From: a virus | Reading direction: 5' to 3' (one strand) | IMG/VR virus record: IMGVR_UViG_3300023202_000400 | Location: 1-24,319 of that record | DNA: 24,319 bases | Shown: in pieces, positions 1,587-7,374 of the stretch | Numbering within the stretch: position 1 is the first letter of the stretch | How the letters are laid out: each line of letters starts with the position of its first letter | Notes under the pieces: model-generated | Told to the model about the DNA's origin: nothing | The model's input: only the letters and a program-made list of their open reading frames with translations | Database searches by the model: none | Made by a program: the position numbers and the translations under genes

Positions 1587-4500
1587 TCAGAAGCTCAGCG
1601 TGGCGGTCTTGGGCGCTCCTCGCCCGACGAGGGCGGAGAGCTGGTAGATGCGGATGTCGAGCGTGTCGCCGGGGCCGAGCGGCGCGCCCCAATCGGCGGT
1701 CTGCTGGGCGGCGGTGTAGACCGCGCTGGTGGTGGTCGTACTGAGGACCCGTTTCACGGTGGCGCCATCGAGGATCTCGACCTCGTAGGCTTCCAGTTCC
1801 TCGCCGAGCGGCACCTCGAGTCCGCCCCAGCTGTCGGCCGCGAGGGCCCGAGACCGGCGTGTCCAGCGGATGGTCAGATCGCCGGGGCTCCGGGGCTTGC
1901 GCCACGGCTGCTCCACATGAGCGACCGAGAATGGCCGCAGCCCCGCGCCCGCGGGCGTGAAGGCCTGCGCGAGATAGGTTTCGTCGCTGACCGGGCGGCT
2001 GGCCGGGCCGATGCGCCAGTTCCACGGGATGCCGAGATCGGCCTCGGCGATCGGCAGGGACGCCAGCGCGGTGTCCAAGACCACAACCCGCGCGCCAGCA
2101 GGCGCCGGGTTGCCCATGGCGTTTTCGGTGCCGCGCTGGCCGCGCAGGAGCCGGGTGAGCTCATAACGGCCCGGCGCCAGCAATTCGGCCGCGCCCGCCT
2201 GCACGATCTCCCAGACGCCGGGCGCGTTCTCGATTGCCAGCGCGTTGGCTCCTCCGAACAGCGTCAGGTCCGTGACGCTTTCCAGCGTCGCGGTCAGCAG
2301 ATCCAACACCAGCGCATTGCCGAGGTCGAAGCGCGAGGTGGGCCCCGCGAAGAAGTCGGAGACCAGCGCCCCGATCCGGGCGCGGGACTGAGTCGTGGTC
2401 AGCAGCTCGAAGCCATCGGTCGAGGGGCTGCGGAAAACCGCCATCTCGCCCGGCCAAGGCACGGCGTGTGCCGCCACGAATGGCCGATGCGCGGGCTGGT
2501 CCTCGGTCAGCTGCGGCAAGTCCATCAGCACCGCATCCGGCGCGCCGAACACCACGGCCCGCGTCAGAGACGCCGCGCGGGGATCGCCGGGCGGCAGGTC
2601 GTAGGTCGCCCGGTCCTGGCGCACCGCCTCGATGCCGCGCGCCTCGGCGTCGGCGATCGAGACGAGCCGCAGATCGACCAGCCGCCCGTCGTACGTGAAC
2701 CGGATCGCGTCGGCCGGATCGAGCGCCAGGCGCGAGGGCAGCAGACGGAACGCCGCCGTCTCGCGCCCCACCCACGCCTCCATCAGCGCGCGGCGGCAGC
2801 GGCGCTCGGCCTCCTCGGGCGGCACGGCCATCGGGAAGGACTCCGAGGTGATCCGTGTCGTGTCCACGGTGATGCGCCGCGCCTCGACGAGGGCCGCGTC
2901 GTAATCCTCGTCGGCGCGGGCGACCTGCCATTTCAGGGCCTGCGGCAGTTCGGTCTCCTGGCCGCGGGTCAGTTCTAGCAGGTCGCCTTCGCGGGCGGCG
3001 ACCAGATCGTCCGGCCCGAGGGTGGCGACGGAGGCCCGCCCACGCATGACAAAACGGATCACCCCCTCGGTCTCAACGGCATCGAAGCCGAAATGCCGCG
3101 ACAGCGTGGTGATCGAGGCCCGCGGGCTTTCGAGCGCGGTGACGGCGTAGCCCTCGACCGCGCCCCAGAGGCCGGTGACATCGATCCGCGCCTCGGGCAG
3201 CCCGGCGCGCAGACAGAGGTGCCGCACAAGAGCCGCAAGCGAGACCGCCCCGAGCCGCCCCGTCAGCCAGTGGCCAAGCCGCCAGTTCGCGCCGTCCGTC
3301 CAGACATCGGTCAGCGCCGGGAAGAAGGGATAGGGCCGCGCGTCCCAGGTCCAGGCGGCACATTCCGGCACATGCACCATGCGACCGCCGTAGACCGAGG
3401 ACAGCGGGTTGTTCGCGGCCTCGCCCCACCAGAGATAGGTCGCCTCCAGATACGCTCGCTGGATCGCGTCGTCGCGCCAGCCCCGCGAGAAATGCGGCGT
3501 GAAGCTCTCCGACGACTTCGGGTCGAAGAACACGTTGGGCTGGTTGGTGCCCCGGTCGATGGCCGGGCAGCCCAGCTCGGTGAACCAGATCGGCTTGGAC
3601 TCGGGCGCCCATTCCGTCGGTGTGCCGCTCTCCACCCCACCCGGGCGATTGTAGTGCGGGTTCGACCACCAGGCGCGCAGATCCTTGTAGCGGAAGACCC
3701 ACGGCTTGGCCGCCGCGCCATCCGTGATCGGGGTGCGGACCTGCGCGGACCGGTCGGCGGCGCTGGCATAGAACCAGTCGTAGCCTTCGCCGCCCGCGAT
3801 GTTGCCCTGCAGATAGGCCCGGTCGTAGATCGCGGGCCAGCCCTCCTGCGCGTCGGCATGCTCGAACCCGTCGCGCCAGTCGGAGAGCGGTATGTAGTTG
3901 TCGATGCCGATGAAATCGATCTCCGGATCGGCCCAGAGCGGATCGAGGTGGAAGAACACGTCGCCCGAACCATCGCCCGGCTGGTGCCCAAAATACTCCG
4001 ACCAGTCGGCGGCATAGCCGATCCTGGTGCCGGACCCGAGGATCGAGCGCACATCCGCGAGGAGGTCCCGATAGGCCTGCACCGCCGGATAAGTGCTGGC
4101 GTTCGAGCGGATCGTGGTCAGCCCCGGCATCTCGGTGCCGATCAGGAAGGCATCGACCCCGCCCGCCGCTGCGCAGAGATGGGCGTAGTGCAGCACCATG
4201 CGCCGAAGACCCCAGTCGCCAGATGGCCCGGTCCAGAAGACCGACTCACCCGAGACGCTGAAGCTGGCAGGCGTGGCCGATCCGAACAGCGCTGCGACCT
4301 GGCTTGCGGCCGTGGCGGTCTTGTCCACGGTCCCTGCGAAACCCGCCGCCGGGGAACAGGTGATCCGCCCCCGCCATGGGAAGACTGGCTGACCCGTCTC
4401 GGTGGCGTTGTCGGAATACGGGTTCGGCAGGGTGTTGCCGGGCGGCACGTCCATCAGGATGAAGGGATAGAAGGTGACGCGCAGCCCGCGCGCCTTCATC

Positions 4501-5552
4501 TCCTGGATGGCCTGCACCACCGCGAAGTCGGACGGCGTGCCGCCATAGACCGGGCGGTCTTGGTCGTCGCGGCTGACGAGGAAGGCATTGGCGCGGCTGA
4601 CGCCATTGACCGACCAGGTGGCGGGCGTCGTCGACTTCGCGGACACCTCGACGCCCGGCCGCACCTTGCACGATCCCGCGCGCAGGTCGTCGCCGAACCA
4701 GGCCACCACGAGGCTGACGCTCTCGACCGCAGGCGCCATCGCCTGCAGCCTGTCCAGCGCCTCCACCATGTCGGTGGAGTCGGCCAGCGCGTTCAGGTTC
4801 TCAGGGATCTGCGCGCCGCCATCGGTCTTCCGGATCGCCTGCGTGGCATAGGTGAACTCGCCCGAGGCCGGGATCATGGTGACGGCGCGGGTCAGCCCTT
4901 CGGCGGTGTCGGGATCGGCCAGCGGCCGGAACACCTCGAAGGAGAGCTGCGGCAGGCGGTTGCCGTAGGTCGAGAGCGCCAGCTCCTCGAAGACCACATA
5001 GGCGGTGCCGCGATAGGCGGGGGTGTTCGCCGCACCCATCTTCGCCGCGATGAACGGGTCCGCCGTCTGCGCCTCGCCGCCGGGATACCAGCGCCAGGTG
5101 ACGCCGGAGAGGTCCATCGGCTTGCCGTCCGCCCAGATGCGGCCGATGCCGGTGATCGGTCCCTCGCAGAGCGCAACGGCGAAGGAGGCGTAGTACAGAT
5201 ACTCGGTGGTCTTGACCTTGCCGCCCCCGCCGCCCTTGCCGCCGCCTTGGGTGGTGGTCTTCGTCTCCTCGCGGAAATCCGTTGCCCAGATGATGTTGCC
5301 GCCCATCCGCATCCGGCCGTAGAGCCGCGGGATGACCGCGCCTTCGGTGGCCGAGGTGATGCGCAGCGTGTCGAGCCGCGCGCCTTCGATGCGCTGCGTC
5401 GGCGCCAGCGACGAGATGATCCAGCTGTCAACGACCGAGCCGATGCTGGAGCCGATGAAGCCGCCGATGGTGGCGGCGCTGACACCAAGGATCGCGCCGC
5501 CGATCGAACCGCCAATGGCGGCGCCAACGGCACCGAGGACGAGCGTTGCCAT
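1587..5552 (-). CDS. GTA-like 'megatron' tail tip / host-specificity protein (GTA TIM-barrel domain)
   Basis: A 1321-residue baseplate protein related to GTA g15 (Rcc01698), whose homologues are close to this length. In the GTA particle this family forms the tail tip that contacts the cell. The N-terminus (MATLVLGAVGAAIGG, about residues 1-50) is a glycine-zipper-like hydrophobic segment. A GTA_TIM-type barrel spans very roughly 420-720, with glycosidase-like acidic spots at FLIGTEMPG (about 470) and WFTELGCP (about 655). A phage-tail domain and an Rcc01698-like C-terminal region follow, ending in a beta-sandwich. The frame stays open up to 5702, but everything upstream of 5552 is IS110 right-end sequence, and MATLVLG is the typical family start. 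The ATG directly abuts the inverted repeat of the insertion element, with GGAG 10 nt upstream supplied by that repeat. Confidence 0.9.
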   Translation of the reverse strand: MATLVLGAVGAAIGGSIGGAILGVSAATIGGFIGSSIGSVVDSWIISSLAPTQRIEGARLDTLRITSATEGAVIPRLYGRMRMGGNIIWATDFREETKTTTQGGGKGGGGGKVKTTEYLYYASFAVALCEGPITGIGRIWADGKPMDLSGVTWRWYPGGEAQTADPFIAAKMGAANTPAYRGTAYVVFEELALSTYGNRLPQLSFEVFRPLADPDTAEGLTRAVTMIPASGEFTYATQAIRKTDGGAQIPENLNALADSTDMVEALDRLQAMAPAVESVSLVVAWFGDDLRAGSCKVRPGVEVSAKSTTPATWSVNGVSRANAFLVSRDDQDRPVYGGTPSDFAVVQAIQEMKARGLRVTFYPFILMDVPPGNTLPNPYSDNATETGQPVFPWRGRITCSPAAGFAGTVDKTATAASQVAALFGSATPASFSVSGESVFWTGPSGDWGLRRMVLHYAHLCAAAGGVDAFLIGTEMPGLTTIRSNASTYPAVQAYRDLLADVRSILGSGTRIGYAADWSEYFGHQPGDGSGDVFFHLDPLWADPEIDFIGIDNYIPLSDWRDGFEHADAQEGWPAIYDRAYLQGNIAGGEGYDWFYASAADRSAQVRTPITDGAAAKPWVFRYKDLRAWWSNPHYNRPGGVESGTPTEWAPESKPIWFTELGCPAIDRGTNQPNVFFDPKSSESFTPHFSRGWRDDAIQRAYLEATYLWWGEAANNPLSSVYGGRMVHVPECAAWTWDARPYPFFPALTDVWTDGANWRLGHWLTGRLGAVSLAALVRHLCLRAGLPEARIDVTGLWGAVEGYAVTALESPRASITTLSRHFGFDAVETEGVIRFVMRGRASVATLGPDDLVAAREGDLLELTRGQETELPQALKWQVARADEDYDAALVEARRITVDTTRITSESFPMAVPPEEAERRCRRALMEAWVGRETAAFRLLPSRLALDPADAIRFTYDGRLVDLRLVSIADAEARGIEAVRQDRATYDLPPGDPRAASLTRAVVFGAPDAVLMDLPQLTEDQPAHRPFVAAHAVPWPGEMAVFRSPSTDGFELLTTTQSRARIGALVSDFFAGPTSRFDLGNALVLDLLTATLESVTDLTLFGGANALAIENAPGVWEIVQAGAAELLAPGRYELTRLLRGQRGTENAMGNPAPAGARVVVLDTALASLPIAEADLGIPWNWRIGPASRPVSDETYLAQAFTPAGAGLRPFSVAHVEQPWRKPRSPGDLTIRWTRRSRALAADSWGGLEVPLGEELEAYEVEILDGATVKRVLSTTTTSAVYTAAQQTADWGAPLGPGDTLDIRIYQLSALVGRGAPKTATLSF

Positions 5553-5566
5553 GTGTGGATGGCTCC
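5553..5566. repeat. Subterminal inverted repeat of the IS110 element, transposase 3' side
   Basis: This perfect 14-base partner of 6911-6924 abuts the ATG of the megatron gene (5550-5552). Read on the minus strand it gives GGAG followed by 10 nt and then ATG, so the repeat itself may serve as a weak ribosome-binding site for the interrupted operon's next gene. Confidence 0.85.
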
Positions 5567-5820
5567 GGTTTTGCAAGGGATATTTCGGGTGACCGTGATC
5601 TCTGCGGATTGCGGTCATGTGTTCGGCCTGTTGGCGCGGTACTGTCTGACCGCTGGCCTTGATGAAGTCCGCAGGCTGGGTCCCAATCATGTTGACGAGC
5701 AATGATGCCCAGGCAACTGCTTCGGCGTGTCCCAGCTACGGTCTTTCCTATCGGATCATCATCACCGTCCATGCCCTCGCAAGTCAAGCGGCGCGCAAGT
5801 TATCCGCGCCGCACTGTTTC
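5567..5820 (-). ncRNA. Candidate bridge RNA region in the right end of the IS110 element
   Basis: This is the long non-coding segment between the transposase stop and the right inverted repeat. IS110 elements encode a structured bridge RNA in a non-coding end, and in the IS1111 group it is in the right end. On the minus strand, three foldable units are visible: an 8-bp perfect hairpin (5788-5795 with 5805-5812); a two-part stem (5671-5674 with 5717-5720, then 5686-5690 with 5702-5706) enclosing an internal loop; and a 5-bp stem (5591-5595 with 5612-5616). Short matches of the loops to target and element ends are described in the findings. The folding was done by eye, and no RNA boundary can be given. 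Confidence 0.4.
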
Positions 5821-6840
5821 TCAGCCTATTGCAGGCGCCTTGTAGTCTTCTTCGCGCAACATCACGGCCCAGGCGATGCGCGCAGTCTTGTTGGCGATTG
5901 CCACCGAAGCGACCCGTGCCGGCTTCCTGTCCAGCAGCCGCCGGATCCAGATCGCGGTCCGGCCCTCCGCTTTTTCGATCCGCCGGATCACGGCAGTCGC
6001 CCCATTCACAAGCAAGGTTCGCAAATAGGGATCGCCCATCTTGGAGATCCGCCCAAGTCGGTCCTTGCCGCCGGTCGAATTCTGTCGCGGCACGATCCCG
6101 AGGAACGCGGCGAAATGCCGGCCCGACTTGAACACCGACGCGTCGGGGATGCTGGCGGCCAGCGCCGTCGCTGTGATCACGCCGATGCCGGGGATCGTCT
6201 GCAGCCGCTGGCTGACCGGATTGTCGGCGTGCCAGGCGCGGAGCTGCCGGTCGAGCGACTTGATCTCCGCCGCCAGCGCCGCGAGCTGGTCGGCGAACCC
6301 GATCAGCGCCCGGCGCGCGACCTCCGGGAGGTCGTGCTCTCCCTCGCGCAGCGCCTTGGCCAGTTGCATCACGTGATACGGGCCCTTCGGCGCGACGATG
6401 CCGAACTCGGCCAGGTGACTGCGGAAGGCGTTGAGTATCATGGTGCGCTGGCGCGACAGCATCTTGCGGGTGCGATGCAGAATGAGCACGCCCTGCTGCT
6501 CCGGCGTCTTGATCGGCACGAAGTGCATGTTCGGCCGCGTCACCGCCTCGCAGATCGCCTCGGCATCGGCCATGTCGTTCTTCTGCCGCTTTACATAGGG
6601 CTTCACGTAGGCCGGCGGGATCAGACGGACCTCGTGGCCGAGCGCCGCGATCTCCCGCGCCCAGTGATGCGACGTCCCGCAGGCCTCGATGCCCACGAGG
6701 CAGCGGGGCAATTGGGTCATGAAGTCCAGCACCTGATTGCGGCGCAGGCGCTTTTTCAACACGACCTGACCCGCGGCGTCGACGCCGTGCAGCTGAAAGA
6801 CGGACTTGGCGATATCGATCCCGAGTGTTGTAATCTCCAT
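5821..6840 (-). CDS. IS110 family transposase (DEDD recombinase)
   Basis: A 339-residue transposase and recombinase of the IS110 family, apparently intact. The N-terminal RuvC-like DEDD domain shows GIDIAKS (D9), GIEACGTSHHW (E52) and KNDMADAEAI (D89, D92). The C-terminal Transposase_20 domain has the helix-hairpin-helix-like IPGIGVITA (about 216-224) and FLGIVPRQNSTGGK, in which S255 aligns with the expected catalytic serine. The frame is open to 6930, but MEITTLGIDIAK at 6840 is the normal family start, and GGGAG lies 8 nt upstream of it within a third copy of the terminal-repeat sequence (6841-6852). It reads in the same direction as the prophage late operon, so transcription passing through it would reach the megatron gene. 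Confidence 0.95.
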   Translation of the reverse strand: MEITTLGIDIAKSVFQLHGVDAAGQVVLKKRLRRNQVLDFMTQLPRCLVGIEACGTSHHWAREIAALGHEVRLIPPAYVKPYVKRQKNDMADAEAICEAVTRPNMHFVPIKTPEQQGVLILHRTRKMLSRQRTMILNAFRSHLAEFGIVAPKGPYHVMQLAKALREGEHDLPEVARRALIGFADQLAALAAEIKSLDRQLRAWHADNPVSQRLQTIPGIGVITATALAASIPDASVFKSGRHFAAFLGIVPRQNSTGGKDRLGRISKMGDPYLRTLLVNGATAVIRRIEKAEGRTAIWIRRLLDRKPARVASVAIANKTARIAWAVMLREEDYKAPAIG

Positions 6841-6910
6841 GTGGATGGCTCCCGTTCCTTTGTTGGTCGATGACAGCACCAGCATGGCACATCGCGATGC
6901 CGTCGGGGGA

Positions 6911-6924
6911 GGAGCCATCCACAC
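6911..6924. repeat. Subterminal inverted repeat of the IS110 element, transposase 5' side
   Basis: GGAGCCATCCACAC here is the exact reverse complement of 5553-5566. Twelve of these bases (6911-6922) can also pair with 6841-6852, just upstream of the transposase ATG, giving a potential hairpin with a 58-base loop over the start region. Confidence 0.85.
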
Positions 6925-6939
6925 CATCATGGGTGGGTC

Positions 6940-7374
6940 TCAGCGTTGCGGGAACAGGAAGGCGAAGGCGATGCGCCGTCGCCAGGATGGAGTGAGCGGT
7001 TCCTCGATCACGCCGAGCCGCTCGTAGGCGTGGAGGAAGGTGTCGGGCCCGGTCAGGATCCCGACATGCTTGGCGATGGCGCGAGGCTTCATGCGGAAGA
7101 GGACCAGCGCGCCCGGACCGGCCGCTGCCGGTTCCACCTCGGTCATCATCCGCCGCGCGCCCTCGGCCAGAACCTCGCGCGGCCCGGTCTCGCCCCAGTC
7201 GCGACTGTAGGGCGGGATCGGGAACGGCTCGGGGCCGACGACCTCGCGCCAGACGCCGCGGGCCAGCCCGAGGCAGTCGCAGCCGATCCCGCGCAGGCCC
7301 GCCTGGTCGTGGTAGGGCGTGCCGAGCCAGGCCCGCGCGGAGGCGATGACCCGATCCGGATCGGCCGGCTTCAC
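6940..7374 (-). CDS. NlpC/P60 family phage cell-wall peptidase (GTA g14-like)
   Basis: A 144-residue NlpC/P60 cysteine peptidase of the phage tail type, expected to cut peptidoglycan peptides during DNA delivery. The catalytic pattern is visible: GCDCLGLARG gives nucleophile C34, AKHVGIL gives H103, and H115 in FLHAYERL may be the third polar residue. The N-terminus ARAWLGTPYHDQ is typical. In the GTA particle the equivalent protein (Rcc01697) sits at the tail tip between the hub and the megatron. The start is GTG at 7374, overlapping the stop of the DUF2163 gene (GTGA), which implies translational coupling. Its natural downstream partner is now 1.4 kb away because of the IS110 insertion. Confidence 0.92.
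   Translation of the reverse strand: MKPADPDRVIASARAWLGTPYHDQAGLRGIGCDCLGLARGVWREVVGPEPFPIPPYSRDWGETGPREVLAEGARRMMTEVEPAAAGPGALVLFRMKPRAIAKHVGILTGPDTFLHAYERLGVIEEPLTPSWRRRIAFAFLFPQR

Follow-up and report, generated by a model that had tools for sequence, protein, structure and literature searches.

How an insertion sequence (IS) can settle inside the start codon of a phage structural gene and leave that gene whole is the question raised by the viral record IMGVR_UViG_3300023202_000400 of IMG/VR, of which a stretch of 24,319 nt was analysed (the window; coordinates are window positions). The minus strand of the window is a phage late operon with lambda-type terminase and portal genes, followed by genes for capsid, tail tube, tape measure, DUF2460, an NlpC/P60 peptidase and a 1,321-aa tail-tip protein of the gene transfer agent (GTA) type, the 'megatron', and the element in question sits between the last two of these genes. 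Our reading, to which we give a probability of roughly 0.87, is that it is an IS1111-type insertion sequence directed by its own RNA to a conserved phage structural gene, at its start codon. Comparison with relatives establishes the borders of the element, its empty site, a structured RNA with two predicted target guides and a predicted donor guide, repeated insertion at the same nucleotide, a sister lineage at capsid gene starts, and intact target frames.

A clean insertion within a start codon

A preliminary description of this DNA had proposed that an IS110/IS1111 element was inserted cleanly at the start codon of the tail-tip gene without destroying it, and had pointed to a 14-bp inverted repeat at 5553-5566 and 6911-6924. 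The repeat was found and is perfect; about 0.005 such repeats would be expected by chance in 1.7 kb (a hand estimate), and both copies coincide exactly with the borders set by the empty sites of relatives. An ATG stands at both sides of the element, as had been noted, with 5550-5552 being the tail-gene start and the region 6929-6931 (minus strand CATG ATGG) the left copy. When the element is removed, the flanks read TGA-GACCCACCC-ATG-GCA-ACG, the normal uninterrupted arrangement seen in relatives.

The uninterrupted junction, of the form ..CGCAACGCTGAGACCCCGAC-ATG-GCCACC.., is present in 77 of 80 related viral contigs, most usually as TGAGACCCCGAC-ATG-GCCACC, and in the remaining three the upstream sequence is different. 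No target duplication was seen and the flanks rejoin to the empty site, so that the insertion was clean, with nothing lost on either side. These 80 relatives were also checked for an empty-site phage with a differing N-terminus or upstream sequence, which would have pointed to more loss than a clean insertion, and none contradicted it. The empty sites, the clean insertion and the family assignment given below bear out the preliminary description. It was incomplete, however, in that it mentions neither a guide RNA nor the insertions at this nucleotide in other phages, the sister lineage in the capsid gene and a separate third copy of the repeat.

In relatives with other targets the two borders have TG and nothing else in common, and TG is therefore taken to be the core. 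With the IS1111 convention of a 7-bp left and a 3-bp right extension (PMC11187229), the element spans 5552-6929 and the insertion point is A^TG within the tail-tip start codon. Two loci differ around this start. In L045 (IMGVR_UViG_2740891861_000011, 2500-3060) a truncated transposase, by eye of another IS110 subgroup, is joined to this tail-tip gene around its codon 4, perhaps through rearrangement or as an assembly chimera, and in L086 (2500-3060) a gene that by eye resembles depolymerases or esterases takes the place of the upstream peptidase gene and ends immediately ahead of the tail-tip start.

Repeated insertion at the same nucleotide

Relatives of the element lie at the identical nucleotide of the same gene in four further phages, denoted L088, L002/L173, L003/L090 (Tabrizicola thermarum) and L004/L176, and the transposases of the same-site carriers are 81-99% identical. 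The window and L088 share 96.7% identity over the element, against 88% and 91% in the flanks; for L173 and L176 the values are 90.9% for the element and 78% for the flanks, and the flank differences between carriers begin at the element border. In a tree of the upstream flank the carriers are scattered among empty-site phages, some of which are nearer to carriers than other carriers are, and four changes are needed, at least three of them forced by supported branches; the rows of the carriers in the downstream alignment have one extra first base, which has no effect on the tree. Because the carriers are scattered in the flank phylogeny and element identity exceeds flank identity, these comparisons indicate at least three separate insertions at the tail-tip start, not one inherited event. 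No additional same-site carriers were found in overlapping draws of 395, 391 and 296 genomes, nor in viral contigs by the guide-loop pattern. The metagenome-assembled genome that contains L088 is labelled Sphingomonadales; the genome draw for its family held the same genomes as that for the Tabrizicola family, and the label or the binning is doubtful.

A sister lineage has taken a different gene. The IMG/VR contig L169 and L204, a genome of the same family as the Tabrizicola carrier, have elements that split the start codon of a lambda-E-type major capsid gene (product MATMDIFEGD.., Phage_cap_E) as A^TG, and in L169 the capsid gene comes directly after a decoration-protein-D gene. The proteins of these capsid-type elements are 73% identical to that of the window, and between L169 and L204 the element is 97.4% identical and the flanks 88-92%. 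Their right guide, TGGTGGCC, pairs with GGCCACCA of the capsid start. Megatron-type elements, capsid-type elements and a decayed element, L089, form one transposase clade (support 99/97), seven of whose eight members are inserted A^TG in phage gene starts, L089 being the exception to what is otherwise the rule. As there is a single supported clade, the targeting of start codons seems to have a single origin and to have been re-aimed later between tail-tip and capsid genes. Relatives of the start-codon element occur in other phages of alphaproteobacteria. The viral contig L189 (about 2380-2520 and 3499-3850) contains a more remote IS110 relative, whose TG core lies at an apparent TGA/ATG stop-start junction of two genes.

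The guide RNA and the IS1111 family

The RNA region at the right end of the element (Table 1) folds better in the window than 200 of 200 shuffled sequences. Its fold, conserved across 14 aligned relatives, has an outer stem and two hairpins, the first of them long and with an internal loop, and two-sided (compensatory) changes were seen in 13 of the 50 RNA pairs. Searches of Rfam gave no family above threshold for the element RNA, only chance hits. The two sides of the internal loop correspond to the target guides, and in a permutation test over 12 distinct target groups the guides agreed much more closely with the targets of their own elements than with permuted targets (left p = 4e-5, right p < 1e-5), the right guide being perfect over eight letters in L091, L092 and L207.

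The stretch ACACATGA of the second hairpin equals the joined element ends (..ACACA|TGA..). In 63 of the 67 elements compared, which vary in their ends, the donor guide matches the right end letter for letter over 7 positions, and it follows right-end changes to ACAAATG, ACATATG, ATACATG and ACACACG. A single predicted RNA carries both target and donor information, as bridge RNAs do. This tracking, which takes in the core as well as the right end, whether the core is TG, CG or another, holds family-wide in these 67 relatives and amounts to a rule for the donor guide in this branch of IS1111. A promoter-like sequence, TTGACT-18-GATGAT (5758-5787, minus strand, 9/12 matches), lies just upstream of the RNA hairpin and might drive transcription of the RNA independently of the circle-junction promoter.

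By all the sequence criteria tested, the element is a member of the IS1111 family of the IS110 superfamily. Its transposase has the DEDD (RuvC-like) N-terminal domain and the C-terminal domain (PF01548, E = 8e-14; PF02371, E = 1.4e-26), and scores 348 bits against NCBIfam NF033542, 'IS110 family RNA-guided transposase', where the cut-off is 140. The C-terminal motif GL-P----S(T)G is present as GIVPRQNSTG in the window, with L changed to I, and as GLVPRQNSSG or GLVPRQNSTG in relatives. The subterminal inverted repeats (sTIRs), expected to be 11-13 bp, are 12 bp long (GTGGATGGCTCC / GGAGCCATCCAC) with the extensions TGATGGT and ACA, and the long non-coding region lies downstream of the transposase gene (about 254 nt, 5567-5820, versus about 70 nt upstream). 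The guides stand in the seekRNA order, with the right guide 5' of the left guide in the RNA, and their match at the megatron site is partial.

Table 1. Features of the element and the adjoining genes in the window
Feature	Position	Strand	Remarks and basis
IS1111-type element, 1378 bp	5552..6929	-	inserted A^TG in tail-gene start codon; empty-site relatives and 7/3-bp extension rule (PMC11187229)
Left inverted repeat GTGTGGATGGCTCC	6911..6924	-	sTIR proper GTGGATGGCTCC, 6911-6922; 7-bp extension TGATGGT, 6923-6929
Right inverted repeat GGAGCCATCCACAC	5553..5566	-	sTIR proper 5555-5566; 3-bp extension ACA, 5552-5554; also the Shine-Dalgarno-like sequence now preceding the tail gene
Core dinucleotide TG, target side (tail gene start)	5550..5551	-	common to both borders in relatives with other targets
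Third repeat copy GGAGCCATCCACA	6840..6852	-	positioned as transposase ribosome-binding region; covaries with right-end repeat in relatives
DEDD transposase, 339 aa	5821..6840	-	PF01548 and PF02371; NF033542
Structured non-coding RNA region (putative seekRNA / bridge RNA)	5567..5780	-	conserved structure; fold z = -2.9
Right target guide GAAGCA-GTTGCC-T (predicted)	5711..5723	-	GTTGCC pairs with GGCAAC of target (ATG GCA AC)
Left target guide GTCAACATG (predicted)	5688..5696	-	same sense as left target half; ends CA + core TG
Donor guide ACACATGA (predicted)	5615..5622	-	identical to right end ACACA + left end TGA
GTA-type 'megatron' tail-tip gene, intact, 1321 aa	1587..5552	-	start now at element border; PF13547, PF13550, PF23666; phrog_4271 full length; open reading frame check
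NlpC/P60 tail peptidase gene, intact, upstream	6940..7374	-	stop 9 bases from split start codon; PF00877

Fit of the guides at the tail-tip site

At the megatron site the ungapped alignment gives a modest fit, in which GTTGCC pairs with GGCAAC and the left guide matches at CA plus the core. Several observations here weigh against guidance of the element to this start. The match is weaker than elsewhere, 4-5 of 8 positions for the right guide and 2-4 of 7 for the left, versus 7-8 of 8 for the right guide in the capsid-type and nearest outgroup elements, and within its own phage the megatron site only ties for best, with 6 of 2406 TG sites scoring at least as high. The decayed L089 has nearly the same guides and is not at a tail-gene start. 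A better pairing is obtained if one guide nucleotide is left unpaired, a reading that is post hoc, rests on three guides and is offered as a suggestion.

The alignment does show one extra nucleotide in the right guide loop of the start-codon elements. With this nucleotide bulged, the three distinct megatron guides read GCA-AC[T]G-CT, GCG-AC[G]A-CT and GCT-AC[G]A-CT, so that all three would match every non-wobble position of codons 2-4, in the form GCN-ACN-CTN, and differ from each other at third codon positions only. Codon positions 1 and 2, which all three bulged guides would pair, are invariant in all 77 empty sites. In L089 itself (1850-3300), which lies outside any tail-gene start, the transposase stop and the right repeat are mutated, and it probably represents an off-target insertion that has decayed.

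Possible translation of the interrupted gene, and the third repeat

The right end of the element places GGAGCCATCCACAC directly before the tail-gene ATG. With the element present, the predicted anti-Shine-Dalgarno energy at the tail gene is -5.8 kcal/mol, versus a native median of -2.7 kcal/mol in the 77 empty sites; for the capsid type it is -8.2 versus -9.5 in the native arrangement. The spacing of 10 nt between this sequence and the ATG of the tail gene is long. Target frames are open for 1,321 codons in the window, at least 1,243 in L088, at least 1,245 in L090 and 337 in the capsid gene of L204. The element is co-oriented with the late operon, and a scan for terminators and promoters found terminator-like sites on the strand opposite the operon only, giving no sign of a polar stop. 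It is plausible that the right repeat drives translation of the interrupted tail gene, which is likely still to be expressed. In phage collections, the element DNA had no match and the tail protein of isolated phages was about 70% identical or less.

The preliminary description had read GGAG-N10-ATG before the tail gene and GGGAG-N8-ATG before the transposase, and had suggested that one repeat may supply the translation starts of both. Both motifs are there, with the clarification that the transposase-side copy is the internal third copy (6840-6852) and not the left terminal repeat. In 33 relatives this copy is more like the right repeat of its own element than like those of others (p = 2e-5, with no correction for kinship); for L173 a wrong right-end repeat entered the comparison, an error that weakens the test and does not inflate it. 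Since it tracks its own right repeat, the third copy seems to be a maintained feature. The right end and the transposase leader share one repeat-plus-ATG module, GGAGCCATCCAC(AC)ATG, and a transposase-RNA complex that bound the shared repeat would co-control the transposase and the captured late gene, be it tail tip or capsid. Such a role, which we regard as quite improbable, would make the element a regulator of a phage structural gene and not a mere occupant.

Proposed mechanism and alternative explanations

By analogy with relatives known from experiment, those with a seekRNA (PMC11187229) or a bridge RNA (PMC11208160), the complex of transposase and RNA would excise a circle joining the element ends, and this circle would be recombined, in one orientation, at the TG of ..CA^TG GCN AC... 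Because the core TG lies inside the ATG and the right repeat ends GGAGCCATCCACACA, insertion would recreate the ATG and supply the downstream gene with a new ribosome-binding sequence, and the gene would therefore be re-headed, not broken. The transposase and RNA, being in the late-operon sense, could be co-transcribed with the operon, and the first-codon target (Met-Ala-Thr) would offer a site that hardly varies among many phages and tolerates insertion.

The most serious alternative accepts the guidance and treats its consequence as an accident: the element would recognise CATGGCNAC, a common start, and the tail gene would be silenced or reduced, leaving defective prophages. The long spacing fits this, as does the GGAG of the sTIR, which also occurs in relatives that do not target starts, so that the Shine-Dalgarno sequence is not obviously tailor-made. 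Against it speak the seven insertions that one clade has made at the starts of phage structural genes, and frames that stay open for more than 1,200 codons in three carriers, and we consider it unlikely. Far less credible is one ancient insertion that was inherited vertically or spread by homologous recombination between phages, with precise losses elsewhere. That the elements of the carriers form one clade, and that phages are mosaic, would suit such a history; it has to contend with elements that are more alike than their flanks, differences that start at the border, carriers scattered among empty-site phages, and an assay of ISEc11 in which excision of an IS1111 element did not regenerate the empty site (PMC11187229).

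A comparably remote reading is that the element captures the phage start codon, with translation beginning at the left ATG and continuing in frame into the transposase to give a 369-aa form. This frame is open in the window and in L088, and it is broken in L173, L090, L169 and L204, while the transposase has a stronger ribosome-binding site of its own. As a general design, in-frame capture of the phage start by the transposase was rejected, the frame being conserved in the window and L088 only. On the main reading, these elements are an RNA-guided mobile clade that has specialised in the start codons of structural genes of phages and has naturally changed its programme between tail-tip and capsid genes. 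From phage to phage, a start codon and the first two codons hardly vary, and they can be divided and put together again; this would account for the ability of a guided element to live in essential genes. The 77 empty and 7 occupied sites also form a natural data set for the RNA guide rules of IS1111 elements (core TG, guide loops and tolerated mismatches), which are relevant to programmable recombinases.

Comparison with known systems

Bridge RNAs are known from IS110-group systems such as IS621, whose core is CT. The window element resembles these in having target and donor guides on one RNA and a short core (PMC11208160). It differs from IS621 in its RNA in the right end, its TG core and its long sTIR. 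The closer likeness is to the IS1111 family elements with a seekRNA, namely ISEc11, ISKpn4, ISPst6 and ISPa11 (PMC11187229), with which it shares a DEDD transposase (here of 339 aa), a 12-bp sTIR, 7/3-bp extensions, a downstream non-coding region, a top-strand complement 5' of a bottom-strand match, the lack of target duplication and natural re-targeting via guide change. Unlike them, it has a phage late-gene start codon as its target and a third sTIR copy at the transposase start, and the right guide loop of the start-codon elements is one nucleotide longer.

Among elements found in phage late genes, the helper-embedded phage-inducible chromosomal islands have integrases that repeatedly choose such genes and disrupt them (PMC10111431). 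Here too a recombinase clade is found on phage late genes, capsid E included, and in co-orientation with them; these islands, however, are integrase-based satellites, whereas the window element, an RNA-guided IS of 1.4 kb, keeps the reading frame intact. The IS110-like element of mycobacteriophage Omega is likewise an IS110 relative among phage virion genes, but was reported as a single case with a 5-bp repeat at its borders, without inverted repeats and with no guide analysis (PMC3706429).

Insertion at translation initiation signals is what the title of Doran 1997, as cited in PMC8141618, ascribes to IS900, an IS110 family element of Mycobacterium avium subsp. paratuberculosis. In this the two are alike, as far as that title goes; IS900 was described for bacterial genes, whereas the lineage of the window repeatedly targets one orthologous phage gene with the core inside the ATG. 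IS900 is without terminal inverted repeats (PMC8141618) and the window element has its 12-bp sTIR, which indicates similar behaviour in a different group. A literature search that left out most subscription papers found no report of an IS1111 lineage devoted to phage start codons. Start-region targeting, then, has one precedent in IS900, and what is new is a specialist for the start codons of phage late genes that has undergone natural re-targeting.

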